A stretch of DNA of 61,072 bases, taken from Salegentibacter sp. R32. Its GTDB lineage: Bacteria > Bacteroidota > Bacteroidia > Flavobacteriales > Flavobacteriaceae. The position numbers and the translations under genes are program-made. Of this stretch, positions 13,670 through 41,816 are shown piece after piece; positions within the stretch are counted from its first letter, which is position 1; each line of letters starts with the position of its first letter. The stretch covers positions 1 to 61,072 of the forward strand of contig NZ_RXOM01000021.1 in NCBI RefSeq assembly GCF_008692195.1. The letters are read 5' to 3'. Below the pieces are notes generated by a model. It saw only the letters and a program-made list of their open reading frames with translations, was not told where the DNA came from and did no database searches.

Positions 13670-15772
13670 TTATTTTTTACCGATTTTTCGCTTTAATAGT
13701 TGCGCATTAATGGCCACTATAATCGTACTTAAACTCATAAATACAGCTCCAACGGCAGGTCCTAAAACAAAGCCTGAAGAATATAATACACCGGCTGCTA
13801 AAGGAATAGCCACTACATTATATCCTGTAGCCCAAATCAAATTCTGAATCATTTTATTGTAGGTGGCTTTTCCAAAGAGAATTAAGTTGGCAATATCCTG
13901 TGGGTTACTGTTGACCAGAATGATATCTGCTGTTTCGGCGGCAACGTCAGTACCTGAACCAACGGCAATACCAACATCAGCTTTTGCAAGTGCAGGCGCA
14001 TCGTTTACACCATCGCCAGTCATAGCCACAAACTCTCCCTTACTTTCCAATTCTTTTACTATTTCCACTTTTTGATGTGGCAAAACTTCGGCGTAGTATC
14101 CATCCAAGCCGAGTTTATCGCTAACAGCTTTGGCAGTTCTTTCATTATCACCGGTAGCCATTAAAACTTTTATATTATTCTTTTTGAAAATTTTGATGGC
14201 ATCGGCAGATTCCGGTCTAATTTCGTCCGCCAATGCTATGTATCCTGCCAGTTTTCCATCAATCAAGACAAAGACGACAGTTTCAGCGGCGTCACTATAG
14301 GCATCTTCGGGAATAGTTATTTTTTCATCCCTTAAAAAACCAGGACTAACCACTTTTACTTGCTTACCTTCTACATTGGCCTCAACGCCTTTACCTGTAA
14401 TTGCATTAAAGTTTTCAGGCTTTGGGATGGTCATATTATCTTCTTTGACTTTTTTAATAATACCTACGGCGATAGGATGTTCCGAACTTTGTTCCAATGC
14501 ACTCGAAAGCCTTAAAATTTCTTCAGATGAATAAGTTTCGCTAACAGACTCAATTCGAGTAACGCCAAAATCGCCTTTGGTCAATGTTCCCGTTTTATCA
14601 AACAATAAAGCTGATATTTTTCGGGATTCTTCAAAAGCTGTCCTATTTCGAATTAATAACCCGTTTTGAGCTGAAACAGCAGTAGAAATAGCAACCACAA
14701 GTGGTATGGCAAGACCTAATGCGTGTGGACAAGCAATGACCATAACGGTAACCATTCTTTCTAAAGCATAGACAAATGGAAAGCCTAAAATCAGCCATAC
14801 CGCTAATGTTCCAAAACCAATACCTAATGCGATATAGGTAAGCCATTTTGCAGCTCTATCCGAGAGGTTTTGCATTTTTGATTTGGTTTTTTGCGCTTCT
14901 TCGACCATTTTGATGACCTTGTTGAGATAGCTATCTTTTCCAGTATGCTCAACCTTTACTTTTAAGGTACTGTTACCATTTACCGAACCACCAATAACCT
15001 TATCGTTTTCATCTTTTTTTACAGGTTTGGATTCGCCTGTAAGCATAGATTCGTTCAGGTAACTTGAACCGTCTACTATAATCCCATCAGCAGGAACTTT
15101 TTCACCTGGTTTAACCAAAATCACATCATCCTTTAGTAAATCTTCAAGAGGGATGTCTTCTATGATGTCGCCTTTTACCCTGTGCGCTTCCGCAGGCATC
15201 ATACTTACCAGTAACTGTAAAGCTTTTGACGCACCTAACACACTTTTCATTTCTATCCAATGACCAAGCAACATTATGGCTATAAGTGTTGATAGCTCCC
15301 AGAAAAAGTCTTCGCCTCTTAAGCCAAATACGGTCGCGGTGCTATAAAAATAAGCTACAGAAATTGCCATAGAAATCAAGGTCATCATTCCTGGCGCACC
15401 TTTTTTGATTTCAGACCAGAATCCTTTTAAAAATGGCCAACCACCATAGAAATATACGATTGTGGAAAGTGCAAAAAGGATATATGGATTTCCGGGAAGC
15501 AAAAACTCATATCCAAAAAAGTCCTGAATCATCGGCGAGAAGAACAGTATGGGAATAGTAAGTACAAGGGTTACCCAAAACCGTTTTCTAAAATCGGCAA
15601 TCATCATTTTATGATGGTCGTGCCCGTGTTCTCCGTGCCCTGGATTGTGGCCAGAATGGTCTCCACCTTTGTGGTTCATTTTAGAATGGTCTTCTTTTTT
15701 GTGTTTCATCTTCGAATGGTCCATTTTAGAATGGTCCATTTCATCGTGATTGTGGTGTTCGTGATTTTCCAT
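13670..15772 (-). CDS. copB: Copper/silver-exporting P-type ATPase, CopB class (CPH)
   Basis: This is a 700-aa P1B ATPase. The first 55 residues are a His/Met-rich tail with repeated DHSKM-type units and no CxxC HMA domain. The membrane metal site is CPH at residues 348-350, which defines the CopB (P1B-3-like) class, as opposed to CPC in CopA. The phosphorylation motif DKTGTLTKG, SEHP in the nucleotide domain and GDGVNDAPAL are all present. The family exports Cu2+/Cu+ or Ag+ from the cytosol. The window also encodes a CPC-type CopA at 52.5 kb, so two export classes coexist. It is followed without a gap by an MFS exporter. Confidence 0.92.
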   Translation of the reverse strand: MENHEHHNHDEMDHSKMDHSKMKHKKEDHSKMNHKGGDHSGHNPGHGEHGHDHHKMMIADFRKRFWVTLVLTIPILFFSPMIQDFFGYEFLLPGNPYILFALSTIVYFYGGWPFLKGFWSEIKKGAPGMMTLISMAISVAYFYSTATVFGLRGEDFFWELSTLIAIMLLGHWIEMKSVLGASKALQLLVSMMPAEAHRVKGDIIEDIPLEDLLKDDVILVKPGEKVPADGIIVDGSSYLNESMLTGESKPVKKDENDKVIGGSVNGNSTLKVKVEHTGKDSYLNKVIKMVEEAQKTKSKMQNLSDRAAKWLTYIALGIGFGTLAVWLILGFPFVYALERMVTVMVIACPHALGLAIPLVVAISTAVSAQNGLLIRNRTAFEESRKISALLFDKTGTLTKGDFGVTRIESVSETYSSEEILRLSSALEQSSEHPIAVGIIKKVKEDNMTIPKPENFNAITGKGVEANVEGKQVKVVSPGFLRDEKITIPEDAYSDAAETVVFVLIDGKLAGYIALADEIRPESADAIKIFKKNNIKVLMATGDNERTAKAVSDKLGLDGYYAEVLPHQKVEIVKELESKGEFVAMTGDGVNDAPALAKADVGIAVGSGTDVAAETADIILVNSNPQDIANLILFGKATYNKMIQNLIWATGYNVVAIPLAAGVLYSSGFVLGPAVGAVFMSLSTIIVAINAQLLKRKIGKK

Positions 15773-15790: not shown

Positions 15791-16084
15791 TTATCGTAAT
15801 TTTTTTCTCATAGCTTCCGAAATGTTTTCGGCATAGACGCCATAGGCATCTACCAGAAGTCCTTTAATTCCATCATTGGAGGATATAGCATATAAAATGC
15901 TATTATCGTCGGTACTGCTCATACCCTCAAAACGATGCATCTCGTCAACATTAAAATCTTCTGGGTGTATTTCAATTTTTAGTGAGGCACACTCCAAACA
16001 TTCTGGTTTTAGGTTAAAATCATATGTATAGCCATTTCCCTGTAAATCGTTTATGGCTTCAGAAAGTGTATCGTAATTTTTCAT
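15791..16084 (-). CDS. Small protein often labelled phosphoribosylpyrophosphate synthetase (97 aa)
   Basis: A 97-aa soluble acidic protein begins MKNYDTLSEAINDLQGNGY and has a Cys pair in PECLECASL (about residues 28-31). It ends with ISSNDGIKGLLVDAYGVYAEN. Bacteroidota homologues carry the database name phosphoribosylpyrophosphate synthetase, but it is far too small and has no PRPP loop, so I treat that name as a transferred label. The CxxC suggests possible metal binding. It lies 18 bases upstream of copB and 6 bases downstream of an exported protein, within the array that also holds a true PRPP synthetase. Confidence 0.7.
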   Translation of the reverse strand: MKNYDTLSEAINDLQGNGYTYDFNLKPECLECASLKIEIHPEDFNVDEMHRFEGMSSTDDNSILYAISSNDGIKGLLVDAYGVYAENISEAMRKKLR

Positions 16085-16090
16085 CTGTCT

Positions 16091-16735
16091 TTATTTATAG
16101 TTTATTGTAAAATAGCTGTTATCTGCTTCTGAAAATTTCTGAAAAGTCAATAATCCTTTTTCATTTAATTTTTCAATAACAGTATAATTGAATTGCTTGA
16201 TGCGAATACCCCAGGCATAGGCCTTAATATTTATTTTTGATTTAATAGTGTTTTTGCCAGCTTCTAATTTTCGATCGTAAATTTTTATGATGCTTTTTGA
16301 ACCGAAAAAATTCAACAAGCCCGAGTCAAAACTCATTTCCAATTCAATATTTTTCAGATTATCCAAATTGTATAGTTCTTTAAATTTCTTTGAAGTGGTG
16401 TTGATTTCTGTTTTCTTTGATTTTGGATTGGAAAACGGGAAAGCCATTACCACTACACTTGCTTCATCAGGCTTGCAACGATAGGTTGTGGTGTATTTAT
16501 CGGTCAATTTTTTGTCTTTATCAAACAATTCCGTAACTACCTCAATTTCATAGTATCCATTTTTCTTTATTGTTTCACTGGCTTTGAAAGTTTGTTTATT
16601 TAAAAAAGAACCATTTTCATCAAAGTTTTCCCGAATAACAACTCTGCCTGAAATCTGCCCAATGAGCATTTCAGTTTGTCCAGTCATTGTGATGCTGAAT
16701 AAAGTGATTAGTACTATAAAGCCTTGTTTTCTCAT
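16091..16735 (-). CDS. Exported protein of unknown function (214 aa)
   Basis: A signal peptide is likely (MRKQGFIVLITLFSITMTGQ). The mature part is a beta-rich domain with alternating Lys/Glu strands and one Cys (YRCKPDEAS), and it ends with YFTINYK. It resembles the broad class of periplasmic lipocalin-like or DUF3108-like proteins, but I cannot assign a family. The start overlaps the end of the PRPP synthetase gene by 4 bases, so it is co-translated with it. Its place between PRPP synthetase and copB gives no direct clue to function. Confidence 0.6.
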   Translation of the reverse strand: MRKQGFIVLITLFSITMTGQTEMLIGQISGRVVIRENFDENGSFLNKQTFKASETIKKNGYYEIEVVTELFDKDKKLTDKYTTTYRCKPDEASVVVMAFPFSNPKSKKTEINTTSKKFKELYNLDNLKNIELEMSFDSGLLNFFGSKSIIKIYDRKLEAGKNTIKSKINIKAYAWGIRIKQFNYTVIEKLNEKGLLTFQKFSEADNSYFTINYK

Positions 16736-17625
16736 ATATGGTGCATTAATTTTTTTACCTCTTTTGCCATAATATCACTTAAATCTATTCCATTTGAAGA
16801 GTGTGGGATGGTATTACAAGTCACTATTTTTTCTACTCCGGAATCCAATAAATCTTGATAGGCGTTTCCTGAAAAAACGGCGTGAATGCCTACACAAATA
16901 GGTGGTTTCATTCCTGCTTTTTTAAGATGTTGTACGGTTTCAATCATTGTTCGGGCTGTGGAAATAATATCATCTACCAAAATGGGTGTAGCATCTTTAT
17001 ATATATCCACATCGGGAACAGAGACTTCTACATCACGGTCACCGTGACGCACCTTTTGTAATACCGTAAATGGTGCTCCTGCATTTTTGGCGACTTCTGA
17101 TACCCATTGTTCACTTTCAGAATCAGGTCCGATAAGTACCGGGTTTTCGATATTTTCTTTAATCCATTCTGAAATTGCGTCGGCAGCGTGAATCACTTTA
17201 TTTGGAATTTGATACACTTCTCCCAACGAACTAATTCTGTGCAAGTGAGGGTCAACTGTGGTAATGCTATCGGCGAAACCAGAAATCAATTTTCCGAAGA
17301 AACCGGAAGTCACTCCTTCTCCTTCATTAAATACTTTGTCCTGCCGCATATACGCCAAATAGGGTGCTACCAAACAGGTACACATAGCTCCTAATGATTT
17401 GGCTGTGTGGCTTAAAAAATATAGTGACAACAGTTTTTCGTCCGGTTCGTGCAAGGTGCATACCAGTACCACACATTTATCTTTAACATCAGACAATATG
17501 CGTGTGTATGATTCCCCGTCAGGGAATTTCCTTAATGTGGCTTGACCCACTTCAGCATCCATTTTTGTAGCCATTAGTTCTGTGAGTTCTTCATTTCCGG
17601 GAAGACTGAATAATATTGTTTTCAT
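16732..17625 (-). CDS. prs: Ribose-phosphate pyrophosphokinase (PRPP synthetase), archaeal-like variant
   Basis: A 297-aa enzyme of the family that makes PRPP from ribose 5-phosphate and ATP. The PRPP-binding loop ILVDDIISTARTM sits at about residue 216, and the flexible-loop region KVRHGDRDVEV precedes it. The divalent-ion motif is TVDPHLHRI, as in archaeal-type enzymes, where classic bacterial Prs has DLHAGQIQGFF. The length is also shorter than the bacterial norm of about 315. The host surely has its own chromosomal prs, so this is a second, divergent copy. It follows the phosphorylase gene by 10 bases, which suggests a shared nucleotide or ribose-phosphate role. Confidence 0.88.
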   Translation of the reverse strand: MKTILFSLPGNEELTELMATKMDAEVGQATLRKFPDGESYTRILSDVKDKCVVLVCTLHEPDEKLLSLYFLSHTAKSLGAMCTCLVAPYLAYMRQDKVFNEGEGVTSGFFGKLISGFADSITTVDPHLHRISSLGEVYQIPNKVIHAADAISEWIKENIENPVLIGPDSESEQWVSEVAKNAGAPFTVLQKVRHGDRDVEVSVPDVDIYKDATPILVDDIISTARTMIETVQHLKKAGMKPPICVGIHAVFSGNAYQDLLDSGVEKIVTCNTIPHSSNGIDLSDIMAKEVKKLMHHI

Positions 17626-17635
17626 AGTATGTTCT

Positions 17636-19138
17636 TTAATTTATAGTTATGATGTCGTTATGGTTGTTTTCATATTCCAAGGCATAATTAAGTTCACCTT
17701 TGGATTCAGCATATATGGTATAAAGCAGTTGGTTCTCTTCGATTTGTTCTCCCAAATGCACATTTAGAAGAATCCCTGCCGATTTAGATTGTGGTGCTCC
17801 AGAAAGCTTGGCCAGTTTTGCAATTTTACGGTTATCAATTCGTTGCAAAACGCCTGACTTTTCAGCTTTAATTTCAATTTTATAAGGTGCTAAAACTGGT
17901 TTTGAAAATTGACCTTGCGCCTTACAAATGGCTACGAATTTTTCATATGCTTTTCCAGATTTGAGAATTTTATGTGCGGTTTCCTGTCCCTTTCCTTTTT
18001 CTACTTTTCCAGAAAGTTCTAATAGTTCAGTAGCTAAAAGCAATGCTCTTTCTGTTAAGTCTTTAGGTGCATCTTCCTCATTTTTCAAAACTTTTAATAT
18101 ATCTATGGCTTCTAAAGTTGGACCGATACCCCTTCCAACAGGCTGCGTGCCATCCGTAACTACAACTTTTACATTCAACCCAACAGCAGTTCCAACGGTT
18201 TCCATATGATTTTTTAGTTTTTCTGCCATTTCGGTACTGCGAACCTTGGCGGTTTCTCCCACGGGAATATCAATGACCACGTGAGTAGAACCAGCTGCTG
18301 CCTTTTTAGAGAGTACTGAAGCGATGAGCTGACCTTCGCTATCAATATCCAAGGCTTTTTCAATTTTAATGAGCACATCATCGGCAGGACTTAACTGCGC
18401 TGTACCGCCCCAAACAAAACATCCGCCTTCTTTTTCTACTACGGTCTTTATTTCCTCGGAAGAGAGCGTAACATTGGTCAGTACTTCCATTGTATCTGCT
18501 GTGCCTGCTGGCGAAGTGATTGCCCGTGAGGATGTTTTTGGCATAGTAAGCCCATACGCGGCAACAATGGCAACTACCAATGGTGTTGTCCTATTGCCAG
18601 GCAATCCGCCAATACAATGTTTGTCGACCACGATATCCTTGTTCCAGTTCAGTTGCTTTCCGGAAGCAATCATTGCTTTCGTTAGGTCGGATATTTCATC
18701 AATATCCATTCGGTCGCCAGCACAGGCAGTAATAAATGCCGAAAGGTGGATGTTGGAATAATCGCCTTCCACGATATCGGTTATGATGTTGTTATAGGCC
18801 TTATAATCCAGTTTTTTGTTATAGATTTTTGCCCTGACGTGGCTTAAGGATTCAATAGGCTCTAAATGGGAAACATATAATGTATCGTTTGGGGAAACAT
18901 TGAGTTTTTTCGCAGCAGCATCTGATAGTCCGATTTCATTAGGCAACAGAATATCAGAATTCAGGACATTAAGACTTGCTACGATTGATGTATTTGCATT
19001 GGATATTCTTATTCGGGTAAGTGCTTCAAAACCTTCTGAAATACAAACGTGGCAATCTTCGCGCATATACACTACATTTTCGTTTTGGGTATAGATTCCG
19101 AGATGTTTATATTTTAATATGTTTGAGTGTGTGTCCAT
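17636..19138 (-). CDS. AMP/thymidine phosphorylase family (archaeal AMP phosphorylase-like)
   Basis: This 500-aa protein has the N-terminal extension of about 80 residues that separates archaeal AMP phosphorylases (about 500 aa) from classic DeoA (about 440). The phosphate-binding signature KHCIGGLPGNRTT occurs near residue 168, followed by SSRAITSPAGTADTMEVL. AMP phosphorylase converts NMPs and phosphate to free base plus ribose 1,5-bisphosphate; thymidine phosphorylase splits deoxynucleosides. The extension favours the first. The gene sits between a beta-CASP RNase and PRPP synthetase with gaps of 28 and 10 bases. No R15P isomerase or RubisCO is present in the window. Confidence 0.85.
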   Translation of the reverse strand: MDTHSNILKYKHLGIYTQNENVVYMREDCHVCISEGFEALTRIRISNANTSIVASLNVLNSDILLPNEIGLSDAAAKKLNVSPNDTLYVSHLEPIESLSHVRAKIYNKKLDYKAYNNIITDIVEGDYSNIHLSAFITACAGDRMDIDEISDLTKAMIASGKQLNWNKDIVVDKHCIGGLPGNRTTPLVVAIVAAYGLTMPKTSSRAITSPAGTADTMEVLTNVTLSSEEIKTVVEKEGGCFVWGGTAQLSPADDVLIKIEKALDIDSEGQLIASVLSKKAAAGSTHVVIDIPVGETAKVRSTEMAEKLKNHMETVGTAVGLNVKVVVTDGTQPVGRGIGPTLEAIDILKVLKNEEDAPKDLTERALLLATELLELSGKVEKGKGQETAHKILKSGKAYEKFVAICKAQGQFSKPVLAPYKIEIKAEKSGVLQRIDNRKIAKLAKLSGAPQSKSAGILLNVHLGEQIEENQLLYTIYAESKGELNYALEYENNHNDIITIN

Positions 19139-19166
19139 ATTTTATTGGTTGTTGTGATTTTTCGAT

Positions 19167-20543
19167 TTATTCTATTTCTTCGATGGTGTATAATTGCGGA
19201 ATTTCTGCATCCCACCCATAGGTTTCCTTGATGCCTTTTTGCAATGCTTCTGCACTCTCTTTTTCACCGTGTACAATGAAAATACGTTCGGGTTTGTTTT
19301 TTATCTTATCCATCCAGTCCATAAGTTCTGCGTGGTCTGCGTGTGCTGAAAGACCTTCAATTTCTGCAACTTCCATATCAAAGGGCACCCATTTTCCATA
19401 CACTTTAAGTTCCTTATCGCCTTCCAATAATTTTCTGCCTCGCGTACCTTCAGCTTGATAACCCACAAAAAGCAAGGTGTTGTTGGGGTTTTGTGCCTGT
19501 GTTTCAAGGTAGTTTAGCATTCTTCCGCCTGTGAGCATTCCGCTTCCTGCAATCACGATTTTCGGTTTATTATCTGTTCGTAATTCCATTGTTTCCCGAT
19601 AACTGCTTACGACCGTAAAGTGCGAGCACATTTCGTCACATTCGTTATCTTCCAACCTGTGCCAATCTCTTGTGCGATGAAACAATTCTAATACACTTGC
19701 TCCCATTGGGCTATCCATTATCATTTGTATTTTTGGTATTTTCTTCTCTTTCAATAATTTCCAAAAAATCAGCATCATCAATTGGGCACGTTCTACTGAA
19801 AAACTTGGAACAAATAGGCTGCCACCTCTGTTGATGGTGTCATTGACCAATTTTTCTATCTGTGGAAGTGCTTCTACTTCATCAGGATGAAATCTTCCTC
19901 CGTAGGTGGATTCAATAAATAATACATCTGCCTTTTTTGGCTTTAAGGGTGGAAACAGTAATAAATCGTTTGTTCTGCCTATATCGCCAGAAAACACAAA
20001 ACGTTTCCTGTGTACATCCAACTCAATGTAAGTTGCTCCCAGAATGTGTCCATTATATTGAAATCGAGCCCTTATGCCATCAAACAATGGAATCCATTGT
20101 GATTGCGGAATTCCTTTAAAATGAGGGATAGTTTTTTCTACATCCTTTAGGTCGTACAATGGTTCAGCAGGATTATGTTTGGAATAGCCTTCTTTATTGG
20201 CACGTTCTGCTTCTTGTTCCTGAATTTTTGCACTATCATTCAAAATGATTTTTGCAATATCCAAAGTGGGGTTGGTACCATAGATGGGTCCATTAAAGCC
20301 TTGCTTTACCAATCTCGGCAGATAACCTGTGTGGTCCATATGGCCGTGGGTGAGCAAAACAGCATCAATATCAGCAACATTAACAGGTGGGTACTCCCAG
20401 TTTTTAAGGCGTAATTCCTTTAGCCCTTGAAAAAGTCCGCAGTCTATGAGTATCTTTTTATCTCCTGTATCCACTAAATATTTTGAGCCGGTTACTGTGC
20501 CTGCCGCTCCTAAGAAATGGATGTTTATTTTATTTTTTTTCAT
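19167..20543 (-). CDS. MBL-fold/beta-CASP RNA-processing exonuclease
   Basis: This 458-aa protein combines a metallo-beta-lactamase core with a beta-CASP insert. The zinc motif LLTHGHMDHTG is at about residue 63, and later metal ligands occur in NGHILGA and SGDIG. The beta-CASP signature is IESTYGG and SGMLTGGR, with the final SAHAD. The family contains bacterial and archaeal CPSF-like ribonucleases that degrade or process RNA; no separate KH or RNase J C-terminal domain is seen. It has no obvious signal peptide, so it acts in the cytosol. It precedes the AMP phosphorylase gene on the same strand. Confidence 0.88.
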   Translation of the reverse strand: MKKNKINIHFLGAAGTVTGSKYLVDTGDKKILIDCGLFQGLKELRLKNWEYPPVNVADIDAVLLTHGHMDHTGYLPRLVKQGFNGPIYGTNPTLDIAKIILNDSAKIQEQEAERANKEGYSKHNPAEPLYDLKDVEKTIPHFKGIPQSQWIPLFDGIRARFQYNGHILGATYIELDVHRKRFVFSGDIGRTNDLLLFPPLKPKKADVLFIESTYGGRFHPDEVEALPQIEKLVNDTINRGGSLFVPSFSVERAQLMMLIFWKLLKEKKIPKIQMIMDSPMGASVLELFHRTRDWHRLEDNECDEMCSHFTVVSSYRETMELRTDNKPKIVIAGSGMLTGGRMLNYLETQAQNPNNTLLFVGYQAEGTRGRKLLEGDKELKVYGKWVPFDMEVAEIEGLSAHADHAELMDWMDKIKNKPERIFIVHGEKESAEALQKGIKETYGWDAEIPQLYTIEEIE

Positions 20544-20575
20544 TGGTATCTATTTAGGTTGTTGTACATAATTTA

Positions 20576-20851
20576 CTACAAGAGCTGCTCCCCAAATTTG
20601 TGACCACCGCAGCAGGAAGGTGTATTTCCTTTATCTTGTTTTGATTTGCTCAATTCCACTATTTCTTTATATAGATTACGAGAATCCTCTTTAATAAAAA
20701 GAGCCAATTTCTTTACTGATTTAGGTTCAAAGTGAACCATTTCCAATAATATCTCAAGGGCTTCTTCAAGTAGTTTTGAGTCATCTTCCAATGCCTAGTA
20801 AAATGGTTCTAAATCTATGTTGCCCTGTTTTTGCAATTCTTCAGTTTTCAT
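20576..20851 (-). pseudogene. Small Cys-containing protein with in-frame amber codon
   Basis: The natural frame starts at ATG 20851 and reads MKTEELQKQGNIDLEPFY, then TAG, then ALEDDSKLLEEALEIL and on to the stop at 20576, 91 codons in all. Apart from the TAG at codon 19 the frame is open. The C-terminus has SCCGGHKFG, a likely metal-binding patch, and the middle is helical. Without suppression, only a restart at the TTG codon two codons after the amber would yield a 71-aa product. The next gene in the array begins 32 bases later. I do not know the family. Confidence 0.6.
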
Positions 20852-20892
20852 TTGTATTATTTTTAAAAATTAGTAATTATTCATTATTTGAA

Positions 20893-21735
20893 TTAATGGG
20901 ATCTACATAATTCTCTTGAATCTTCGAGTATCTTATTTTGCCTTAGCTTACTGATACCCATTTGTTCCAAAAAGTCTGGATTTTCGTGTAGCTCCTTGCA
21001 GAGTATGATGCCTTGATCCAATAATTTTGTTTTTTCAGCTTTGGTAAGTGTTGTTAAAGCGGTTAAGGGATGTAGCCCCGATTTATCTATTCTGTCCTTG
21101 AGACCATTTCCTCTTGGATAATCCCAACTGGTCATAAGCATTCCAACACATTTCCCGTACTGAATGGCATCGGTTGTGAAACGCGTATTGGTGTAAACCC
21201 CGCCTTTATGAAGTTTAGCCTCGTGACCTTTTTGGTGTTTCCATTGCTTTTCCACGTCCAAAAACCGTGAATGGATATATAATGGGATTTTTACATTGCA
21301 AAACCTGCCTTGGTCACTATGGTATTTACATTCAATCATATAATGTTTATTTCCTTTTTGCGCTATCACATCCACTTCGTGCTGAACGCAATTGCCTTGA
21401 ACTATGACACCAACCTGTGTTGAAAATCCTTCGTGTGCCAATAGTTTGCCTACTAACTTTTCAAATGGAAAACCGGTTGGACCTAGTTCCATTAAAGCTT
21501 TTTTGAGCTTGTACTTTGAGGCACTTACCCTAGATTTTCGTTTTAGCATCTTGAAAGCCAACTGATAGATTTTTTTGGTTGTCATTCCTTCTTCAATCTG
21601 CTCTTGTACTTTCCGGGCTACATCCTGAATAATATCCTCATCTGCCCGTGAACGCCGCAGGGAGTTGATGAGTTTGTTTACATCAAAGGCTTCGTACTCA
21701 CCAGAGTATTTTTTTATTAAGACTGATTTATTCAT
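20893..21735 (-). CDS. ATP-cone domain fused to a PD-(D/E)XK nuclease-like domain
   Basis: This is a 280-aa protein. Residues 1-90 form an ATP-cone (LIKKYSGEYEAFDVNKLINSLRRS...), the nucleotide-sensing module known from ribonucleotide reductase and NrdR. Residues 90-220 form a restriction-like domain with the Mrr-type core: Glu120-x-Asp122 and ECK at 135-137. A helical tail follows. The combination suggests a nuclease whose activity depends on ATP or dATP levels, but that is inference. It lies 2 bases after the double-USP gene and upstream of the amber-interrupted ORF. It carries no modification partner, so it is not an ordinary restriction enzyme. Confidence 0.8.
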   Translation of the reverse strand: MNKSVLIKKYSGEYEAFDVNKLINSLRRSRADEDIIQDVARKVQEQIEEGMTTKKIYQLAFKMLKRKSRVSASKYKLKKALMELGPTGFPFEKLVGKLLAHEGFSTQVGVIVQGNCVQHEVDVIAQKGNKHYMIECKYHSDQGRFCNVKIPLYIHSRFLDVEKQWKHQKGHEAKLHKGGVYTNTRFTTDAIQYGKCVGMLMTSWDYPRGNGLKDRIDKSGLHPLTALTTLTKAEKTKLLDQGIILCKELHENPDFLEQMGISKLRQNKILEDSRELCRSH

Positions 21736-21737
21736 TG

Positions 21738-22568
21738 TTACATTTTAATAGTCATTACTGGTAATTCGGAGTGATTGGTTACACCCTCTGCGATGCTTTT
21801 AGAGAATAAAGTTAAAAAGCCTGTACGTCCGTGAGTACACATTGCGATTAAATCGGCATTTTTATATCGTAAAAAATTGTTTATCCCTGTTTCTACGTCT
21901 TGTTCGTTATATACATTCATTGAGAAGTTATCCAAATCGGGGAATTTTTTCAGGAACTCCTTGATGGGATCCAACCCTTGTTCTATACTGTTAAAATCGG
22001 TCTGAGTATTGACCCTCAATAAATGGATATGTGCGCCGCATTTTTCAGCAATCGAAATAACCTGCTTAAATGCATCGCTTACATCTTGAAGAAAATCTGA
22101 AACAAAAACGATATCCTTAAAAGGAAAGGATACTTCTTCATCCTTGACTACAACAACTGGTACATCAGCTTTCCTAACAATTTTTTCTACGTTGCTTCCC
22201 ATTAACTCACGTATACCGCCTCGGGTGCCACTACTTCCCGTAACTATAAAATCGTGATGAAAATGACCCGAATGTTTAAGGATATTTGCCTGACCACCAT
22301 CAAATTCAAGAAAAGTCCTGCACTCAAGGCCTTGTCGTTCTGCTTTTTTCTCCAGTTCTCTCAAGGAGGCTTTTGCGATGCCTATTTGCTTTACTGTTTC
22401 TGGATATCTTTTTTCTTTTTCCTTATCTAGCTCAACCCAGTTTACGGGGGTGTTAATTAAGTGAAAAAAATGAATTTCTGAATTGTAAAGCTTTGCCATT
22501 TCAATTCCGAGTTCCTCTGCTTTCTTGCAGTTTTCTGAAAAGTTTGTAGGTACGAGTATGTTTTTCAT
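21738..22568 (-). CDS. Universal stress protein with two Usp domains
   Basis: A 276-aa cytosolic protein has two tandem alpha/beta Usp domains. Domain 1 ends with VTGSSGTRGGIREL, an ATP-binding type loop. Domain 2 has the similar ATHGRTG-like segment MCTHGRTGFLTLFSKS before PVMTIKM. Tandem Usp proteins bind ATP or metabolites and promote survival under starvation, metal or respiratory stress. It is the first of two USP genes in the array. It is 32 bases downstream of the aldolase gene. Confidence 0.88.
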   Translation of the reverse strand: MKNILVPTNFSENCKKAEELGIEMAKLYNSEIHFFHLINTPVNWVELDKEKEKRYPETVKQIGIAKASLRELEKKAERQGLECRTFLEFDGGQANILKHSGHFHHDFIVTGSSGTRGGIRELMGSNVEKIVRKADVPVVVVKDEEVSFPFKDIVFVSDFLQDVSDAFKQVISIAEKCGAHIHLLRVNTQTDFNSIEQGLDPIKEFLKKFPDLDNFSMNVYNEQDVETGINNFLRYKNADLIAMCTHGRTGFLTLFSKSIAEGVTNHSELPVMTIKM

Positions 22569-22600
22569 GATTTATTGTTTTTAAATTGTTTTCGTTATAA

Positions 22601-23662
22601 TTAAGCTATGGTTATACTATCTTCCAGATATACCTGTTGGACGGAGTGCAGTAACTCAATCCCTCTAATAAAAGGCTTTTGAAATGCTTTTCGACCCATA
22701 ATCAATCCAGAGCCGCCAGCTCTTTTATTGATTAATGCTGTTGTTACCGCTTCGGTCAAATCTGATTCACCTTTAGAGCCACCGCCGGAATTGATCAATC
22801 CTATTTTGCCCATATAGCAATTGGCGACTTGTAATCGACAAAGGTCAATGGGATGTTCTGTGGTAAGGGTTTTATACATTTCATCATCATATTTCCCAAA
22901 CCCAATTTCCTTAAATCCAAAATTGTTTGTAGGTAATTTTTGTTTGATGATATCTGCCTGTATCGTTACGCCGATATGATTAGCTTGTCCGGTAACGTCG
23001 GCGGCAGCGTGATAATCTTTCTTTTCGGTTTTAAAATTTTCATTGCGGGTATAGCACCATAAAATGGTAGCCATTCCTAAACTATGGGCTTCTTCAAAAG
23101 CTTCAGCTATTTCTTTTAGCTGTCTGTTGCTTTCTGCTGAACCAAAATAAATCGTAGCTCCTACGGCAATTGCTCCCATATCCCAGGCATTTTTTACCTT
23201 ACCAAATAATGTTTGGTCATATTTATTTGGATAGGTAAGTAGCTCGTTATGGTTAATCTTGACGATAAAAGGGATTTTATGGGCATATTTTCGGGCGTTC
23301 AATCCCAATACACCAAACGTGGATGCCACACCATTACATCCTGCTTCTATTGCCAATTTTATGATGTTCTCTGGGTCAAAATAATCTGGGTTTTTATAGA
23401 ATGAAAAGGCCGCGCTATGCTCAATACCTTGGTCAACAGGAAGAATACTTAAATAACCAGTTCCTGCCAGATTTCCGTGATTGTATAATTGGGAAAGGCT
23501 ACGAAGTACCTGTGGATTTCTGTTACTTTGAACAAATACCTTATCTATGTTTGCTTTACTGGGGGTTTGCAGTTCATCCTTTGTTATTTTTTCACAAACG
23601 TGTTCTAAATAGAAGTCTGCTTTTTCTCCTAAAAGTTCTACTATATTCTTGTCTGTTTTCAT
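22601..23662 (-). CDS. fbaB: Class I fructose-bisphosphate aldolase (FbaB/DhnA type)
   Basis: This 353-aa protein is close in length and sequence pattern to Escherichia coli FbaB (350 aa). Recognisable are [13 protein letters not shown] near the N-terminus, [12 protein letters not shown], and the long conserved stretch around [17 protein letters not shown] and [11 protein letters not shown], ending with [17 protein letters not shown]. Class I enzymes cleave fructose 1,6-bisphosphate through a lysine Schiff base and need no metal, unlike zinc-dependent class II aldolase. It follows the GAPDH gene by 11 bases, so two consecutive glycolytic steps are encoded together. Confidence 0.9.
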
Positions 23663-23673
23663 CTTGATAGTAT

Positions 23674-24687
23674 TTAATGGATTCCTAAACTTTCATTTGT
23701 TTTGGCTATGGATTTTGTACCATCTGTTTCAATTCCAGTTAATGCCCTAATAGCATCAATTGTTTCCGGGATTACAATAGCTTGGTTATCGACCACGTAG
23801 GCATAAAAGAGTTCGTCTCCCTGTACCTTCAGCATATCTTCCCATAGTGCTACTTCGTACATATCGCCCCAAGGCCTTCCCATATCCAAGAACATTTCCT
23901 TAATGGTATTGTTAGAAACCAGACCTTGGTCATATTGAATTAATTTAATACGACTTGAAGTTTTGAAAGCATTTAGCACTTCTTCCTTTGTCGCCTGCTT
24001 TTTCAATTTCACATTCCAATAATGCATATGGCTTAAGGTTTCGGGTACCTTTACCGCTGCGGTGATGACATCCAATTCTGGATCTACACTTTTAGCATCC
24101 GGACCTTGATGGCTTGGGATATCTTTTTCGGGAACCATCGTATTCATAATACCACCCAAATGACTTTCCCAAGGGTCTGTAGCTCTTCTTAAAAGTGTAC
24201 CTCTGGCATAATCCAATAAATCGGCTCTTTTTAAAGCGGTCAAGGTTCTTAAAATAGACGTAGTATTACAAGAAACTACTCTTGTCGCATTCAAGTTTAG
24301 AGCCGATTTGTAATTATTTTCTGCACTAAAGGAATGCCCTGTGGTTTCGTGTTTTTCGCCACCGTGTAGAATAAATTTGATGTTTTGCTCCTTGTAGATA
24401 ACGACATTCTGAGCGGCAATTTTTTTGGGTGTACAGTCCACAACAAGATCTGATTTCTTTAAAAGTTCCTGTAAGCTTCCTTTTACCGAAATCCCTTCAG
24501 ATTTCATTTTATCAGCAGCATCTTTAGTTGCTGCATAAATGTCGTATTCCTTTCTTACGGCATTTTGAATTCGCCAATCGCTAATGATATCGCATACGCC
24601 CGAAAGCTTCATATCGTTTTGTAAGTTGATGGCATCTGCCACCCTTTTTCCAATGACTCCGTAACCTATAACTGCTACATTTTTCAT
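23674..24687 (-). CDS. Type II (archaeal-type) glyceraldehyde-3-phosphate dehydrogenase
   Basis: A 337-aa enzyme begins with a Rossmann motif ([17 protein letters not shown]). The nucleophilic Cys140 lies in [11 protein letters not shown], and [13 protein letters not shown] and [13 protein letters not shown] are typical of the archaeal type II family. That family is only remotely related to bacterial GapA and uses NADP or NAD to oxidise glyceraldehyde 3-phosphate. The host will have its own GapA, so this is an additional isoenzyme of different ancestry. It is co-transcribed with class I aldolase and lies 19 bases after the APC permease gene. Confidence 0.88.
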
Positions 24688-24706
24688 ATAAATTGTTTTT
24701 AATTAA

Positions 24707-26062
24707 TTATGATTTGTTGTTTTTATTATTTGTATTCTCCATTCCCATAGGCATATTGCCATCATCGTCTGTATGCGAAATCATAAAAAGGCGTTCCGCC
24801 ACAAGTATTAGAACAATCCCAATCGCTGCTACGATAAGCACCAAAGGATCGTTCAGATATTTTATATAAAGAAAAGCTGCCAATACCGCAATGTCCAATA
24901 CGATGGCTATTAATGGGATGATAGGCTGAAAAACCACTTTGTTTTTAAGGTGACGGAACAGCCCCCAATGGATAGCGATATCCATAATAAGGTAAAAAAT
25001 AGCCCCAATGGATGCTATCCTTGTCAAATCGAAAAGCACGGTCAGTAAAATGGCAAGGGAAGACGTGAATATTAGCGCTGGATTTTTAAAATTACCTATC
25101 CTTTTTAAAGAGGGTACTTGTTTCATATTGCTGAGCATTGCCAACAAGCGTGAAGAGGAAAAGATACTGGCAATGACCCCAGAAACCGTGGCAATAATGG
25201 CAATGCCAATGGTAATCCAGGAACCCCATTCCCCAAAAACAGGTTTTGCGGCGGCTGCAAGGGCATAATCTTTAGCTTCGATTATTTCAGGAATGCTTAA
25301 ACCTCCCGCAACAGCTAATGCCAAGGCTACATATATCAGTGTGCAGATAAGTATGGAAAACACGATAGACCTACCAAGATTTTTATGCGGGTTTTTAATA
25401 TCGGCCCCTTGGTTCGTGATAGTGGTAAAGCCTTTATAAGCAAGGATAGATAACGCCAAAGCGGCCACAAATCCGAAGCCTTGTGGTAATGTCTCAGTAT
25501 TTTTGGGAATATAGTTTCCCGTAATATCGGCAAAACCTGAAATTGCAAGGCCGGCAATAGCTAAAATTGCTATTCCCACTACCTTTATAATAGCGGTAAA
25601 TGTCGCGGTGGCACCAATAACCTTATTGCCCAGGATGTTCACTATATAAGCAACAACAATTAGCCCAACACCCAGGGTAGAGGCATAACCTGCATAGGAC
25701 TCGGGAAATAGTCTCAACGTATATGCTCCAAAAGTGCCCGCCACCAGACTTTCGGAAACTACCATTGATACGTACATCAGCAAAGAATAAAACCCTGTTG
25801 TTGTTCCAGGTCCATAGGATTTGTTAAGGAATTTAACCACACCTCCAGACGATGGAAAAGCATTTGAAAACTTGACATAGGAATATGAGCTAAAACCCAC
25901 CACAACAGCACCTGCAATAAATGCAATGGGAAATAGATCACCCACCAACTCTGCTATTTGCCCCATAAGGACAAATATGCCAGCACCAATCATTACGCCT
26001 GTACCAAGAGATATGGAACCTATTAGGGAAAGCTTATTATTTTTATCTGTGTTTTTTTTCAT
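24707..26062 (-). CDS. APC-superfamily permease
   Basis: This 451-aa protein has about 12 membrane helices. The helix 1 motif GTGVMIGAGIFVLMG (about residues 20-34) and the unwound helix 6 region fit amino-acid/polyamine/organocation permeases. The C-terminus is hydrophilic and Asn/Lys rich (DGNMPMGMENTNNKNNKS). The substrate is unknown; an amine or amino acid is usual for this family. It starts 7 bases downstream of the NDH-2 stop. Its presence between NDH-2 and GAPDH may mean import of a compatible nitrogen source or acid-stress relief; nothing in the sequence decides this. Confidence 0.82.
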   Translation of the reverse strand: MKKNTDKNNKLSLIGSISLGTGVMIGAGIFVLMGQIAELVGDLFPIAFIAGAVVVGFSSYSYVKFSNAFPSSGGVVKFLNKSYGPGTTTGFYSLLMYVSMVVSESLVAGTFGAYTLRLFPESYAGYASTLGVGLIVVAYIVNILGNKVIGATATFTAIIKVVGIAILAIAGLAISGFADITGNYIPKNTETLPQGFGFVAALALSILAYKGFTTITNQGADIKNPHKNLGRSIVFSILICTLIYVALALAVAGGLSIPEIIEAKDYALAAAAKPVFGEWGSWITIGIAIIATVSGVIASIFSSSRLLAMLSNMKQVPSLKRIGNFKNPALIFTSSLAILLTVLFDLTRIASIGAIFYLIMDIAIHWGLFRHLKNKVVFQPIIPLIAIVLDIAVLAAFLYIKYLNDPLVLIVAAIGIVLILVAERLFMISHTDDDGNMPMGMENTNNKNNKS

Positions 26063-26069
26063 TTCAAAA

Positions 26070-27425
26070 TTATTTTGTTCTGTTTTTAATCGAAGATTTC
26101 GGTTTAAAGTTTCTAATAATCAGGCGGTTGCTCTTTTCATAAGTGAAATAACTTACCGCCCAATTAAAACCAACCATCAATCTATTTCTAAATCCACTTA
26201 TGGACATCAAGTGTACTATGGACCATAGTAACCAGGCGAAATAGCCAGCAAACTTCATTTTTCCCAAGTCGGCTACTGCTTTACGTTTTCCTACGGTTGC
26301 CAAAGAACCCTTGTCTTTATATTCGAAAGGTTGTGTGGGTTTATTATTTATGAGGTTTAATATAGAATTACCCAGATATTTTCCTTGTTGAATTGCTGCC
26401 TGCGCCACCTGTGGATGCCCTTTGGGTCTTTCTTCAGAAATAAGCGCAGCTATATCGCCTATGGCAAAAATGTTTTCGTAGCCTTCTACTTTTAAATTAG
26501 CATCGGTTTTAATCCGGTTGCCCCTGACTATGTGTTTTTCATCAATACCATTTGGGAATTGTCCTTTTACGCCAGCCGTCCAGATAAGATTTTTAGCCAA
26601 AATGGTCTTACCACTTTTGGTAGTGACTTCGTTGCCGTCATAATTGCTTACAGCTTCATTTAATAATACCTTTACATTCAAATCCTCTAAATATTTGAGG
26701 GTTTTCGATGATGCCTTGTCTGACATTGTGCCTAACAACTCATCAATGGCTTCTATTAGATAAATATTCATAATGGAAGAAGGGTACTCTGGGTAATCTT
26801 TGGGAAGGATGTATTTGCAAAACTCTGCCAAAGCTCCTGCCATTTCTACGCCTGCTGGACCACCACCTACTATTACAAAATTTGTCAGCGCGTCGCGTTC
26901 TTTATCATCACAAGTAATAGCTGCCTGTTCCAAATTTTGCAACATCATATGACGGATGTTGAGGGAATCGCGAATATCCTTCATCCCCAAACTATTTTCG
27001 GCCACAGAATCCATCCCAAAGAAATTGGTGGTCGTGCCAGTAGCCAACACTAAATAGTCATAAGAAACACTTCCCTTATTGGTCAATATAGTATTTGAAT
27101 CAGGTTGAATTTCCTCAACTTCAGCCAAACGAAAGAAAACATTTTTATAGCCATTGATTTGTTTTCTGAATGGAAATACAATACTGTCAGGCTCCAGGGC
27201 ACTCGTTGCCACTTGATATAATAAAGGCTGAAACTGATGGAAGTTATTTTTATCGAGTAAAACCACTTGAACTTCTTTGTGTTTCAGTTTCTCAACCAAT
27301 GCCAAACCTGCAAATCCTCCACCAACGATAACCACACGAGGTAATTTAGTATCTGGAAGACAGATTTCATCTGTTATCTTACAGGTGGATTCCAACGGAA
27401 TGCTATGTGTTTGCTTTTCTTTCAT
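26070..27425 (-). CDS. ndh: Type II NADH:quinone oxidoreductase (NDH-2)
   Basis: This is a 451-aa single-subunit flavoprotein. The FAD-binding motif VVIVGGGFAGLALVEKL is at about residue 30, and the NADH-binding motif VIVGGGPAGVEMAGAL at about residue 187. The second FAD contact is IFAIGDIAAL. A C-terminal amphipathic and hydrophobic segment (AWLLWSIVHLMSISGF) anchors it to the membrane. NDH-2 passes electrons from NADH to quinone without Fe-S clusters or proton pumping. The start overlaps the stop of the upstream single-domain USP gene by 4 bases, which shows co-translation. Confidence 0.9.
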   Translation of the reverse strand: MKEKQTHSIPLESTCKITDEICLPDTKLPRVVIVGGGFAGLALVEKLKHKEVQVVLLDKNNFHQFQPLLYQVATSALEPDSIVFPFRKQINGYKNVFFRLAEVEEIQPDSNTILTNKGSVSYDYLVLATGTTTNFFGMDSVAENSLGMKDIRDSLNIRHMMLQNLEQAAITCDDKERDALTNFVIVGGGPAGVEMAGALAEFCKYILPKDYPEYPSSIMNIYLIEAIDELLGTMSDKASSKTLKYLEDLNVKVLLNEAVSNYDGNEVTTKSGKTILAKNLIWTAGVKGQFPNGIDEKHIVRGNRIKTDANLKVEGYENIFAIGDIAALISEERPKGHPQVAQAAIQQGKYLGNSILNLINNKPTQPFEYKDKGSLATVGKRKAVADLGKMKFAGYFAWLLWSIVHLMSISGFRNRLMVGFNWAVSYFTYEKSNRLIIRNFKPKSSIKNRTK

Positions 27426-27883
27426 TTTTTATTTCTATCTCTTGCAATCAGTACTGAACATTTGGCATTTGTGGTCAAATATTGGGATACAGAGCCCAAT
27501 ACTAAGCGTGAAAGTGCACCGTGACCCTGAGAGCCTACTACGATTAAATCTGCACCCCAATCTTCTGCTTTTTCATAAATAGTACTTTTGGGCAGGCCAC
27601 TAATAACACTTGTGGTTATGGTAAGTGCCTTGTTTTCGGCCTTGATTTTATCGAAAGCTTCTGAAACGATTTTGTTTCCCAATTTTTGAGCGTTACTTCT
27701 AATTTCTTCTATGTAATTTCCTATCCTGCCGCCCATAGTATGCAATCCCAGGCCGGTTGTTTTCGGAACTTCATAAACATTTATAATATGAATTTCACTA
27801 TTTGAGGATAGGGTCATTTTTATAAGTTCGTGAATGGCTACTTTACTGAAATCTGAACCATCTATGGCCAATAGTATTTTCAT
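27422..27883 (-). CDS. Universal stress protein, single domain
   Basis: A 153-aa Usp begins MKILLAIDGSDFSKVAIHEL and has a complete ATP-binding signature GSQGHGALSRLVLGSVS before CSVLIARD. It belongs to the ATP-binding UspFG-like class. It overlaps the NDH-2 start by 4 bases and follows the lycopene-cyclase-like membrane gene by 12 bases. It is the second USP of this array and is independent in sequence from the tandem one. Confidence 0.9.
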   Translation of the reverse strand: MKILLAIDGSDFSKVAIHELIKMTLSSNSEIHIINVYEVPKTTGLGLHTMGGRIGNYIEEIRSNAQKLGNKIVSEAFDKIKAENKALTITTSVISGLPKSTIYEKAEDWGADLIVVGSQGHGALSRLVLGSVSQYLTTNAKCSVLIARDRNKK

Positions 27884-27895
27884 AGTTTGAATGTA

Positions 27896-28606
27896 TTAGT
27901 TGGTTGATATTTCTTTCGATTTTATAAGTTTTCTCCAATACAAGTGTTCATATAATCCAGACCAATACATACCAAAGGTGAAAGCGAATAATAATTCTTC
28001 AATTGGAATTCCTAGAACAAGAATATGGGTCAGGTTGTCCAGATTCCAGTACAGCTCCACATATTGCGGATAAAACGGAAGGATGCTTCCGAAATAAATG
28101 AAGTACAGTATGGTAAACAAGATTCCTCCAACCCATATCTTTCCTTTTAAATCTGGGCGACAGTACAATGTTGCCAAACCACCAAAAAACATTGCAATGA
28201 TGCCACAATAGATGTGGTTAAGCGTGGTGAAAAGACTAAATATGACGAATACAATGGCTGGAACAAAAAGTATATAAATATGTAGCTTATGTCTTTGGTG
28301 GCTCCGTTCGGTATGAGGCATATCTATATAGCCTTTTTTGAATATCAGATTATACAATACCGTCCCTATTCCGCCAATGGCAAAAGAGAAGATAAGGCTC
28401 TCAATATCAAAACCTGTTCTTTCCGCTAAATGGAATAAGGAAGGTGGCATCCAATATTCTGGTACAAATAATGGTTCTGTTAAACCAAAGGGCATCGTAA
28501 TAAGGCTCATTTTGAGCATTTCTTTTCTATACCCCTTTTTTGACAAATAGATTATTGCCCAAAGAGCAAGAATTATAAGAGACCATATGAACCAGACATA
28601 TTGCAT
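27896..28606 (-). CDS. Lycopene cyclase-domain membrane protein
   Basis: A 236-aa protein has about seven membrane helices. The motif LTHILVLGIPIEELLFAF (about residues 190-207) matches the PxEE signature of the CrtYc/CrtYd-type lycopene cyclase domain, and YWMPPSLFHLAERTGFDIESLIF resembles its first repeat. Both repeats in one chain would make a full fused-type enzyme. No other carotenoid gene is in the window, so it may use host lycopene or may have been repurposed. It lies 18 bases downstream of the DUF5676-like gene. Confidence 0.7.
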   Translation of the reverse strand: MQYVWFIWSLIILALWAIIYLSKKGYRKEMLKMSLITMPFGLTEPLFVPEYWMPPSLFHLAERTGFDIESLIFSFAIGGIGTVLYNLIFKKGYIDMPHTERSHQRHKLHIYILFVPAIVFVIFSLFTTLNHIYCGIIAMFFGGLATLYCRPDLKGKIWVGGILFTILYFIYFGSILPFYPQYVELYWNLDNLTHILVLGIPIEELLFAFTFGMYWSGLYEHLYWRKLIKSKEISTN

Positions 28607-28624: not shown

Positions 28625-28903
28625 TTATTTTTTGACTTTTATTTGCGCATTATAAAAAGCCGCAATACAGGCACCTATTAGCCATCCTAAAATGAATATC
28701 TGTACTATTCCCAAACCAGCTTCCCATAGTGGCACATCCATCCTGATAATGCTTGTGGTATCTAAACCGTGCAATAGGCTGTTGAAAAAATCGATAGTGG
28801 CTTCTCGACCTGCTGTTGACATAACTATCATACAGCCTAAGTAAATTAGTGCCGCCGTAAGACCGAAAGCAAATCCGAGTTTTTTTACGTTTAATCGATA
28901 CAT
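28625..28903 (-). CDS. DUF5676-like small membrane protein
   Basis: A 92-aa protein has two membrane helices, at about residues 8-30 and 60-85. The pattern GLTAALIYLGCMIVM...FFNSLLHGLD followed by WEAGLGIVQIFILGWLIG matches DUF5676, a family often found beside copper genes. Function is unknown. It is 17 bases after the SHOCT-domain gene in the same array. Confidence 0.78.
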   Translation of the reverse strand: MYRLNVKKLGFAFGLTAALIYLGCMIVMSTAGREATIDFFNSLLHGLDTTSIIRMDVPLWEAGLGIVQIFILGWLIGACIAAFYNAQIKVKK

Positions 28904-28920
28904 AATTTTAAAGTTTTGAG

Positions 28921-29139
28921 TTAGTTGTCTGATTTTAATAATTTTTTGGATTCTTCAAATTCCTCCTTTGAAATTTCGCCCTTGGCAAACCTGTTTTTTA
29001 GGATGTCCAATGGCTTTTCTTTTTTTGGTTTTTGGTATGGGATATCAGTTGGGATAAAGAAAATCCAAATGATAAACGCCATCCAAATAATCCACCATAT
29101 CAGGTGCATACCTCCGAAACTTCCGTCGTGAAAAAACAT
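28921..29139 (-). CDS. SHOCT-domain small membrane protein
   Basis: The product is 72 aa when started at MFFHDGSFGGMHLIW (29139). A longer frame opens at 29217 but would overlap the upstream HMA gene by 56 bases, so the internal ATG is preferred. A Trp-rich membrane helix (LIWWIIWMAFIIWIFF) is followed by the SHOCT motif DILKNRFAKGEISKEEFEE, a short domain found at protein ends that is thought to mediate oligomerisation. Such proteins are frequent in metal-resistance clusters. Confidence 0.78.
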   Translation of the reverse strand: MFFHDGSFGGMHLIWWIIWMAFIIWIFFIPTDIPYQKPKKEKPLDILKNRFAKGEISKEEFEESKKLLKSDN

Positions 29140-29161
29140 AATTTTTGATTTTAAGTTACTT

Positions 29162-29374: not shown

Positions 29375-29384
29375 ATCTTAAACT

Positions 29385-29624: not shown

Positions 29625-29648
29625 TGTTGTTTATTTTAAAAGTTAAAA

Positions 29649-32839: not shown

Positions 32840-32944
32840 TAATTAGCCCTATGGTCAATACTATTTTGGGCTCAATTTCTTGTGTTTAATGTTTTGATTT
32901 TATCAAGATATTATTCGATGTATAACTATTTAATAATCATTGTA

Positions 32945-37899: not shown

Positions 37900-37902
37900 A
37901 AA

Positions 37903-40272: not shown

Positions 40273-40293
40273 ACAACTAAAAATTAAAAAAAG

Positions 40294-40680: not shown

Positions 40681-40737
40681 GACACTATAAAAAGGCAGTA
40701 ATAATAATTAATAAACACAAACTTAAATTAAAACAAA

Positions 40738-41793: not shown

Positions 41794-41816
41794 ACAATAA
41801 TTTAAAAGTAATTAAA

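Follow-up and report, generated by a model that had tools for sequence, protein, structure and literature searches.

Central-metabolism and nucleotide genes within a putative copper operon of a mobile island in Salegentibacter sp. R32

The 61,072-nucleotide stretch analysed here (the window), one contig (NZ_RXOM01000021.1) of the draft genome of Salegentibacter sp. R32 (4.08 Mb in 68 contigs), carries an array of genes in which enzymes of central metabolism and nucleotide turnover lie between copper genes. We lean towards reading this array as a copper operon with a portable kit that would sustain the supply of ATP and phosphoribosyl pyrophosphate (PRPP) when respiration or copper-sensitive enzymes fail. 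The observations behind this reading are the gene content, the layout on one strand, the presence of duplicates of the enzymes in the host genome, the recurrence of the array in relatives, and a statistical link between type II (archaeal-type) glyceraldehyde-3-phosphate dehydrogenase (GAPDH-II) and metal genes.

Gene array and host counterparts of its enzymes

The first-pass annotation had described, at 15791 to 28606, a block with class I aldolase, archaeal-type GAPDH, type II NADH dehydrogenase (NDH-2), two universal stress proteins (USPs), a divergent PRPP synthetase and an AMP phosphorylase between copper genes on both sides. Profile matches placed all of the named genes in this span, and the array proved to be wider. 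A single co-directional series extends beyond the span on both sides, to 12431 and 30128 on the minus strand, in which neighbouring genes overlap in places or lie no more than 32 bp apart, save for one gap of 101 bp, a layout that suggests co-transcription. Copper genes stand on both sides, a pump with a CPH motif at 13670 to 15772 and copper-type leader genes at 29162 to 30128, the latter followed by genes for CusA, an outer-membrane factor, a multicopper oxidase and CusB. The genes of the array are listed below in the order of transcription.

29162..30128, minus strand: copper-type leader genes for a Met-rich protein (159 aa), a DUF2933-like protein (79 aa) and a protein like heavy-metal-associated (HMA) domains (70 aa), in this order; named by eye
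28625..29217, minus strand: two small membrane proteins, SHOCT and then DUF5676 (domain matches)
27896..28606, minus strand: lycopene-cyclase-domain membrane protein (PF18916)
27422..27883, minus strand: USP1, universal stress protein (PF00582)
26070..27425, minus strand: NDH-2 (Pyr_redox_2, PF07992, and NDH2_C, PF22366, above cut-off)
24707..26062, minus strand: APC-family permease (PF13520)
23674..24687, minus strand: GAPDH-II with SCNTT motif (NF003251 and TIGR01546 above cut-off; best PDB sequence match 1cf2)
22601..23662, minus strand: class I fructose-bisphosphate aldolase, FbaB type (NF006707 above cut-off)
21738..22568, minus strand: USP2, tandem universal stress protein (PF00582, two stretches)
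20893..21735, minus strand: protein with ATP-cone (PF03477, at cut-off) and Mrr-type (PF04471) domains
20576..20791, minus strand: 71-aa open frame with CCGG motif, start uncertain
19167..20543, minus strand: beta-CASP metallo-hydrolase, by its Beta-Casp and RMMBL domains a probable ribonuclease
17636..19138, minus strand: AMP-phosphorylase-like enzyme (NF003338 and TIGR02645 above cut-off, TIGR03327 below; best PDB sequence match 4ga5)
16732..17625, minus strand: divergent, archaeal-like PRPP synthetase, loop DDIISTARTM (NF005537 above cut-off; best PDB sequence matches 1u9y and 4twb)
16091..16735, minus strand: h214, 214-aa protein without Pfam match (in 80 of 80 related loci)
15791..16084, minus strand: h97, 97-aa protein with CxxC, without Pfam match (in 78 of 80 related loci)
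13670..15772, minus strand: CopB-type P1B ATPase with CPH motif and His/Met-rich N-terminus (TIGR01511 above cut-off; CPH and MSLST motifs)
12431..13669, minus strand: MFS transporter, terminal gene of the array (Pfam MFS_1; in 70 of 80 related loci)

Among the leader genes the Pfam scan covered the Met-rich protein, which gave no match. At 20576 to 20892 an ATG-led short frame was seen by eye to end in TAG directly before the 71-aa frame. An Rfam scan of the window returned nothing. The pump combines CPH in the membrane with an MSxST helix (MSLST), which we take to be the signature of P1B-3 copper ATPases, and was classed as CopB-type P1B-3; the CPH motif was also present in 80 of 80 relatives. 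Judged by its family, its substrate is presumably copper.

The island GAPDH-II scored 450 bits on NF003251 (cut-off 185) and 328 bits on TIGR01546 (cut-off 233), and the class I aldolase scored 637 bits on NF006707 (cut-off 327). The PRPP synthetase exceeded the cut-offs of NF005537 (397 vs 322 bits) and TIGR01251 (205 vs 113 bits) and did not reach the equivalog NF002095 (216 vs 296 bits). The label AMP phosphorylase held at the level of the broader families NF003338 and TIGR02645, and it did not hold for the AMP-phosphorylase equivalog TIGR03327 (495.4 vs 535 bits). In the PRPP synthetase, the Gly of the phosphate-binding loop (TGGT/TAGT), presumably the usual residue at this position, is absent and ART is found instead. 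The loop ART was present in 85 of 89 homologues with at least 60% identity, and the loop Gly in one of 48 homologues below 60% identity (four without a motif match), some places being counted twice in both sets. Most of the fetched PRPP synthetases carry R, H, T, E, Q, A or C for Gly in DDIxSTxGT, possibly a subfamily signature.

The host genome holds two GAPDH-I genes that pass the family cut-off, another that narrowly misses it (365.9 vs 367.2 bits), one canonical Prs besides the island copy, and one class II aldolase. Because the island PRPP synthetase shares 21.8% identity with the host Prs, and significant BLAST matches, over all frames of at least 200 aa, were found neither between the island GAPDH and the three host GAPDH-I frames nor between the island aldolase and the host class II aldolase, the island enzymes are, judged from their sequences, second, non-homologous or divergent solutions for host reactions. 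Two further candidates were rejected: poverty in Cys as a sign of hardening, with three Cys each in GAPDH-II and one host GAPDH-I, and a CRISPR reading of the beta-CASP match to NF045584 (389 bits vs cut-off 800).

Recurrence of the array and association of GAPDH-II with metal genes

With the phosphorylase as bait in genome contigs (exact peptide seeds of that one protein), the best 80 of 114 relatives were compared; these loci are close kin, not independent, and flanks of at most 10 kb end many of them early. Each of the 80 loci has a CPH-type pump behind the phosphorylase, at a median distance of 1.9 kb and never more than 7.9 kb away; PRPP synthetase and h214 were likewise present in 80, the beta-CASP and ATP-cone proteins in 79, and USP2 in 78. 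Since no locus has the phosphorylase without both the pump and the PRPP synthetase, the composition of the array is not due to chance. The core gene set was kept while phosphorylase identity dropped from 100 to 77%, and the flanking cargo differed between loci.

At least one of phosphofructokinase (PFK), fructose-bisphosphate aldolase (FBA), GAPDH-II, a D-lactate-dehydrogenase-like (D-LDH-like) enzyme and phosphoketolase was in range in 76 of the 80 loci, and no open reading frame (ORF) of at least 90 aa on the opposite strand separated these metabolic genes from the pump in 70 of the 74 loci that could be scored. ORF clustering gave counts of 59 for the D-LDH-like enzyme, 48 for PFK, 43 for FBA, 38 for GAPDH-II, 33 for a Glt/Dct symporter, 10 for PPK2 and 9 for phosphoketolase, each cluster being named from one representative and the D-LDH-like one lying below every D-LDH cut-off listed; by tblastn, FBA was found in 44, GAPDH-II in 40 and NDH-2 in 14 loci. 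Most of the 80 loci are flavobacterial, and the rest bear the labels Cyclobacterium, Membranihabitans, a Verrucomicrobia metagenome-assembled genome, and the gammaproteobacterium Marinicella. The Marinicella GAPDH-II fell inside the island clade (support 99/96) of a tree that contained no archaeal rows; therefore, the island has probably crossed phyla.

Counting that of the window, 18 of 395 Bacteroidota genomes carried GAPDH-II. As strict metal markers we took P1B pumps with CPx, CusA or MerA at no less than 40%, MerT, and multicopper oxidases at no less than 35%. Such a marker was near GAPDH-II in 12 of the 17 remaining Bacteroidota places, compared with 1 of 39 control stretches in these genomes (Fisher 1.3e-7), or 1 of 33 when only controls of at least 10 kb were counted (5.8e-7); the certainty of these values is overstated, the loci being related, and the controls lay mostly near the starts of other contigs and differed in length. 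The places without a strict marker were L185, L186 (pump with CPG motif), L192, L199 and L198, of which L192 and L199 are stretches of only 10 to 11 kb ended by contig edges and L198 is a sister island of the same type as the window. An isoprenylcysteine-methyltransferase-like gene was noted near GAPDH-II at 10 of the 15 Bacteroidota loci that belong to a class other than that of the window (L184-L197, L199), and at several plasmid loci too.

Among 398 Pseudomonadota genomes, three carried GAPDH-II, all within 12 kb of the phosphorylase; this sample was centred on a Marinicella genome (G395), which was picked for having the island and is one of the three. In plasmids (PLSDB), GAPDH-II was found in 37 of 72,556 records, at least 17 of them also with the phosphorylase as judged from 40 of 155 phosphorylase rows listed. 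A heavy-metal P-type ATPase or a multicopper oxidase lay within 10 kb at 9 of 12 inspected plasmid loci, chosen by hand from the 37 records and spread over four phyla. Stretches elsewhere on eight of the nine positive plasmids served as controls: one held a heavy-metal ATPase (cut), another merA and a cadmium transporter, and another a small metal-binding protein. Companions of the plasmid GAPDH-II included phosphoketolase, aldolase, PFK, glucan phosphorylase and enolase, in Roseovarius also arginine deiminase genes, and in Paracoccus sp. AK26 the pump is directly flanked by GAPDH-II and PRPP synthetase. GAPDH-II, which the first-pass annotation had regarded as the weakest part of its proposal, thus turned out to have the strongest metal link in the survey.

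Copper, mercury and mobile-element surroundings

The remaining features of the window that bear on the island are as follows.

30963..31544, minus strand: AraC regulator with HMA-like N-terminus, upstream of the array, a candidate copper sensor (PF12833; MVCSRC in the translation)
32882..46186, plus strand: block of CusA, outer-membrane factor, multicopper oxidase and CusB
48240..52297, plus strand: mercury genes, two MerT-HMA and a MerA with HMA (MerA named by its domains)
57637..58851, minus strand: tyrosine integrase of a mobile element

Within this contig-limited window of a draft genome, the tyrosine integrase, type IV coupling protein (T4CP) domains and DUF5712, which we take to be a Mob-type relaxase, supply the integrase, coupling-protein and mobilisation-type genes of a putative integrative conjugative element. 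The island resembles known mobile copper and heavy-metal islands (cop, cus, multicopper oxidase, mer) in its CPH pump, CusA/CusB/outer-membrane factor, multicopper oxidase, HMA proteins, mer genes and integrase, and differs from them in that the operon adds central-metabolism and nucleotide enzymes between copper genes. A role of the block in mercury resistance, also proposed at first pass, found no backing: the mercury genes start about 20 kb from the 15791 to 28606 span, and nothing was found to tie the block to mercury in particular, even though the GAPDH-II loci L184, L187 and L188 in other Bacteroidota adjoin MerA and MerT matches. Elsewhere on the mobile element, at 5376 to 9601, a Y-family polymerase adjoins a DNA polymerase III alpha-type protein, possibly a mutagenesis cassette, and IS110-type transposase frames lie near the MFS end of the array (154 aa, 11903 to 12367) and near the other contig end (331 aa, 59321 to 60316).

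Proposed function and alternatives

In the explanation that we favour, the block would be the inner part of a copper operon of about 18 kb on a mobile island of marine Flavobacteriaceae. The outer genes would bind and export copper, and the inner genes, presumably induced by copper, would supply ATP and PRPP independently of host enzymes and complexes disabled by copper or low oxygen. GAPDH-II would replace GapA and the divergent PRPP synthetase would replace Prs, both of which are inhibited by Cu(I) in S. aureus, if the island isoenzymes are more tolerant of copper. Class I aldolase and NDH-2 need no active-site metal or Fe-S cluster, and would keep working on that account. The beta-CASP protein and the AMP-phosphorylase-like enzyme may convert RNA and AMP to base and ribose bisphosphate, and PFK, the D-LDH-like enzyme, phosphoketolase or PPK2, found in the same stretch in relatives, may provide substrate-level ATP. 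These last companions are not explained by metal-hardening alone; hardening would be one half of the explanation and substrate-level ATP the other.

Copper chemistry reported for S. aureus is consistent with two of these replacements. In excerpts of PMC10249872, the activity of purified Prs was 7-fold lower at 2 µM Cu(I) and undetectable at 5 µM, copper treatment roughly halved cellular PRPP, and higher prs expression lowered copper sensitivity; its discussion treats the question of which enzymes copper poisons in living cells as not yet settled. Binding of Cu(I) to GapA and its inhibition are described in an excerpt of PMC6350627. The first-pass proposal that the island replaces copper-damaged enzymes is therefore partly supported, for GapA and Prs, which these papers show to be inhibited by Cu(I) and which have second, non-homologous or divergent copies inside the copper operon, and is weakened for class I aldolase, a common enzyme in the phylum.

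The following observations weigh against the favoured explanation. Class I aldolase was present in 204 of 395 Bacteroidota genomes and was rejected as an island marker. Over-expression of gapA brought no gain in copper tolerance to S. aureus, as far as the excerpt of PMC6350627 goes. The island GAPDH-II keeps the catalytic Cys in SCNTT (alignments to 1cf2 and 2czc), a motif shared by 68 of 68 homologues gathered from the fetched loci, with one place or more entering the count twice. With 6 Cys and 11 His, the island PRPP synthetase exceeds the host Prs, which has 4 and 8. A promoter motif common to the block and the copper promoters was not found, a comparison run without a control that gave only scattered 13-mers. 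Three of the 12 inspected GAPDH-II plasmid loci, in Croceicoccus, Indioceanicola and Pontibacter, were without a metal marker. To these are added the Pseudomonadota phosphorylase places and the Bradyrhizobium low-oxygen data, both given below.

The phosphorylase family was found in 4 of the 395 Bacteroidota genomes at E <=1e-80 (the window's own included; three above cut-off) and in 45 of the 398 Pseudomonadota genomes at E <=1e-100 (48 places; 44 genomes above cut-off). PRPP synthetase was present at 41 of the 48 Pseudomonadota places, within 300 bp at 39 of them, and beta-CASP at 21. Strict metal markers lay within about 9 kb of the phosphorylase at 4 of the 48 places vs 0 of 29 controls (p 0.29; controls 100-120 kb away, 26 in Pseudomonadota and 3 in Bacteroidota, of differing lengths). 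One of the four is L112 in the centre genome, leaving 3 of 47 without it; counting three CPD-type pumps, 7 of 48 places have a metal gene. Because metal markers are rare at these places, the phosphorylase/PRPP synthetase pair is a unit of wider occurrence, and its linkage to the copper pump is peculiar to the Bacteroidota-type island. The gene-order survey that the first-pass annotation had suggested as a check thus favoured its claim for GAPDH-II, and went against it for this pair in Pseudomonadota, where the pair occurs mostly without metal genes. In PLSDB the phosphorylase was found in 155 of 72,556 plasmid records, and copper-type or CusA-type genes lay within 14 kb of it in seven of eight plasmids picked by hand among the 40 listed, without controls and from incomplete gene tables, the exception being a Sphingobium plasmid.

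Three side observations belong to these loci. On a Legionella anisa plasmid (L083), alternate F1F0 ATPase genes and a CusA-type efflux operon come after the genes for phosphorylase and PRPP synthetase. At L123, L131 and L134 (Pseudomonadota), P-type ATPases near the phosphorylase carry ACPDALGLATP, with CPD replacing CPC/CPH. A control stretch (L216; G198, 500 kb) holds distant homologues of the beta-CASP, ATP-cone and USP proteins together (54, 49 and 26% identity), perhaps a second stress cluster of that genome.

That Pseudomonadota copies mostly lack metal genes is expected if the block is a survival module for low oxygen or starvation, in which the USPs, beta-CASP protein, phosphorylase, PRPP synthetase and glycolytic or fermentation enzymes serve energy-starved cells; we regard this as a credible alternative that falls short of probable. 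The counts of D-LDH-like, PFK and phosphoketolase genes in the 80 loci also fit it, as does Bradyrhizobium, in which a trio resembling the island set by names alone, not by alignment, bll3115/3116/3117 (metallo-beta-lactamase, PRPP synthetase and thymidine phosphorylase family), was up at 0.5% O2 (protein log2 fold changes 2.9/4.4/2.1; transcript fold changes 15.4/7.7/5.1; excerpts of PMC6515984). These values come from a list at log2 fold change >=1, outside the 62 significant proteins of the table, which also has phosphoketolase, oleate hydratase, a CusA/CzcA pump and a DUF302 protein. The trio differs from the island set, which sits in a copper operon, and in the same excerpts it is not marked as a FixK2 or NifA target. 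Under this alternative the copper neighbours would reflect the coincidence of copper stress and low oxygen in sediments, or a rise of Cu(I) toxicity without oxygen. Against it stand the joining of the CPH pump to the block in all 80 close relatives and the association of GAPDH-II with metal genes in several phyla.

The stability of the phosphorylase and PRPP synthetase core, in Pseudomonadota as in the island loci, together with the recurrence of beta-CASP in both, could instead point to a module for nucleotide salvage and energy charge. Here beta-CASP would yield nucleoside monophosphates, the phosphorylase would convert AMP to adenine and ribose-1,5-bisphosphate, PRPP synthetase would balance PRPP, and the glycolytic genes would be secondary; the ATP-cone neighbour and the altered phosphate-binding loop of the PRPP synthetase subfamily suit it as well. 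The AMP phosphorylase of T. kodakarensis is an enzyme of the archaeal AMP phosphorylase pathway, and the island phosphorylase resembles this pathway in its best PDB sequence match, 4ga5. It differs in scoring below the equivalog cut-off, in having PRPP synthetase as partner, and in its genome, where models for ribose-1,5-bisphosphate isomerase and RuBisCO gave no match and the archaeal route for the phosphorylase product was not found. As these matches are missing, the weight of the salvage module is lowered; it also leaves the copper pump unexplained, and we consider it rather unlikely. Hitch-hiking of unrelated accessory genes without joint function is improbable: the element looks mobile (integrase, DUF5712, T4CP) and its flanking cargo varies by locus, but the core set persists as phosphorylase identity falls across the 80 loci, and GAPDH-II is again seen beside metal genes in further classes and phyla.

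Within the favoured explanation of a copper operon with a kit for ATP and PRPP supply, a more specific idea is put forward only tentatively, namely that islands in several phyla confer copper resistance by target replacement, with divergent stand-ins for GapA and Prs in an efflux operon plus a kit for substrate-level ATP. The dfr and sul genes encode drug-insensitive replacement enzymes on mobile elements. The logic is alike, in that a divergent extra version backs up the enzyme that is poisoned, with a metal here instead of a drug and with putative insensitivity. To our knowledge, target replacement is familiar for drugs and has not been described for metals. A search of the open literature by titles gave none on metal target replacement among the matches listed, and the main text of the C. 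metallidurans CH34 genome paper has no occurrence of phosphoketolase, thymidine phosphorylase or ribose-phosphate.

If target replacement is true, a copper operon with its own GAPDH and PRPP synthetase would be an evolutionary vote for GapA and Prs as copper targets, and the pairs of island and host enzymes would be matched material for testing such targets. GAPDH-II in bacteria would, on this view, belong for the most part to metal islands, and replacing the target would be a new principle of metal resistance besides pumping copper out.

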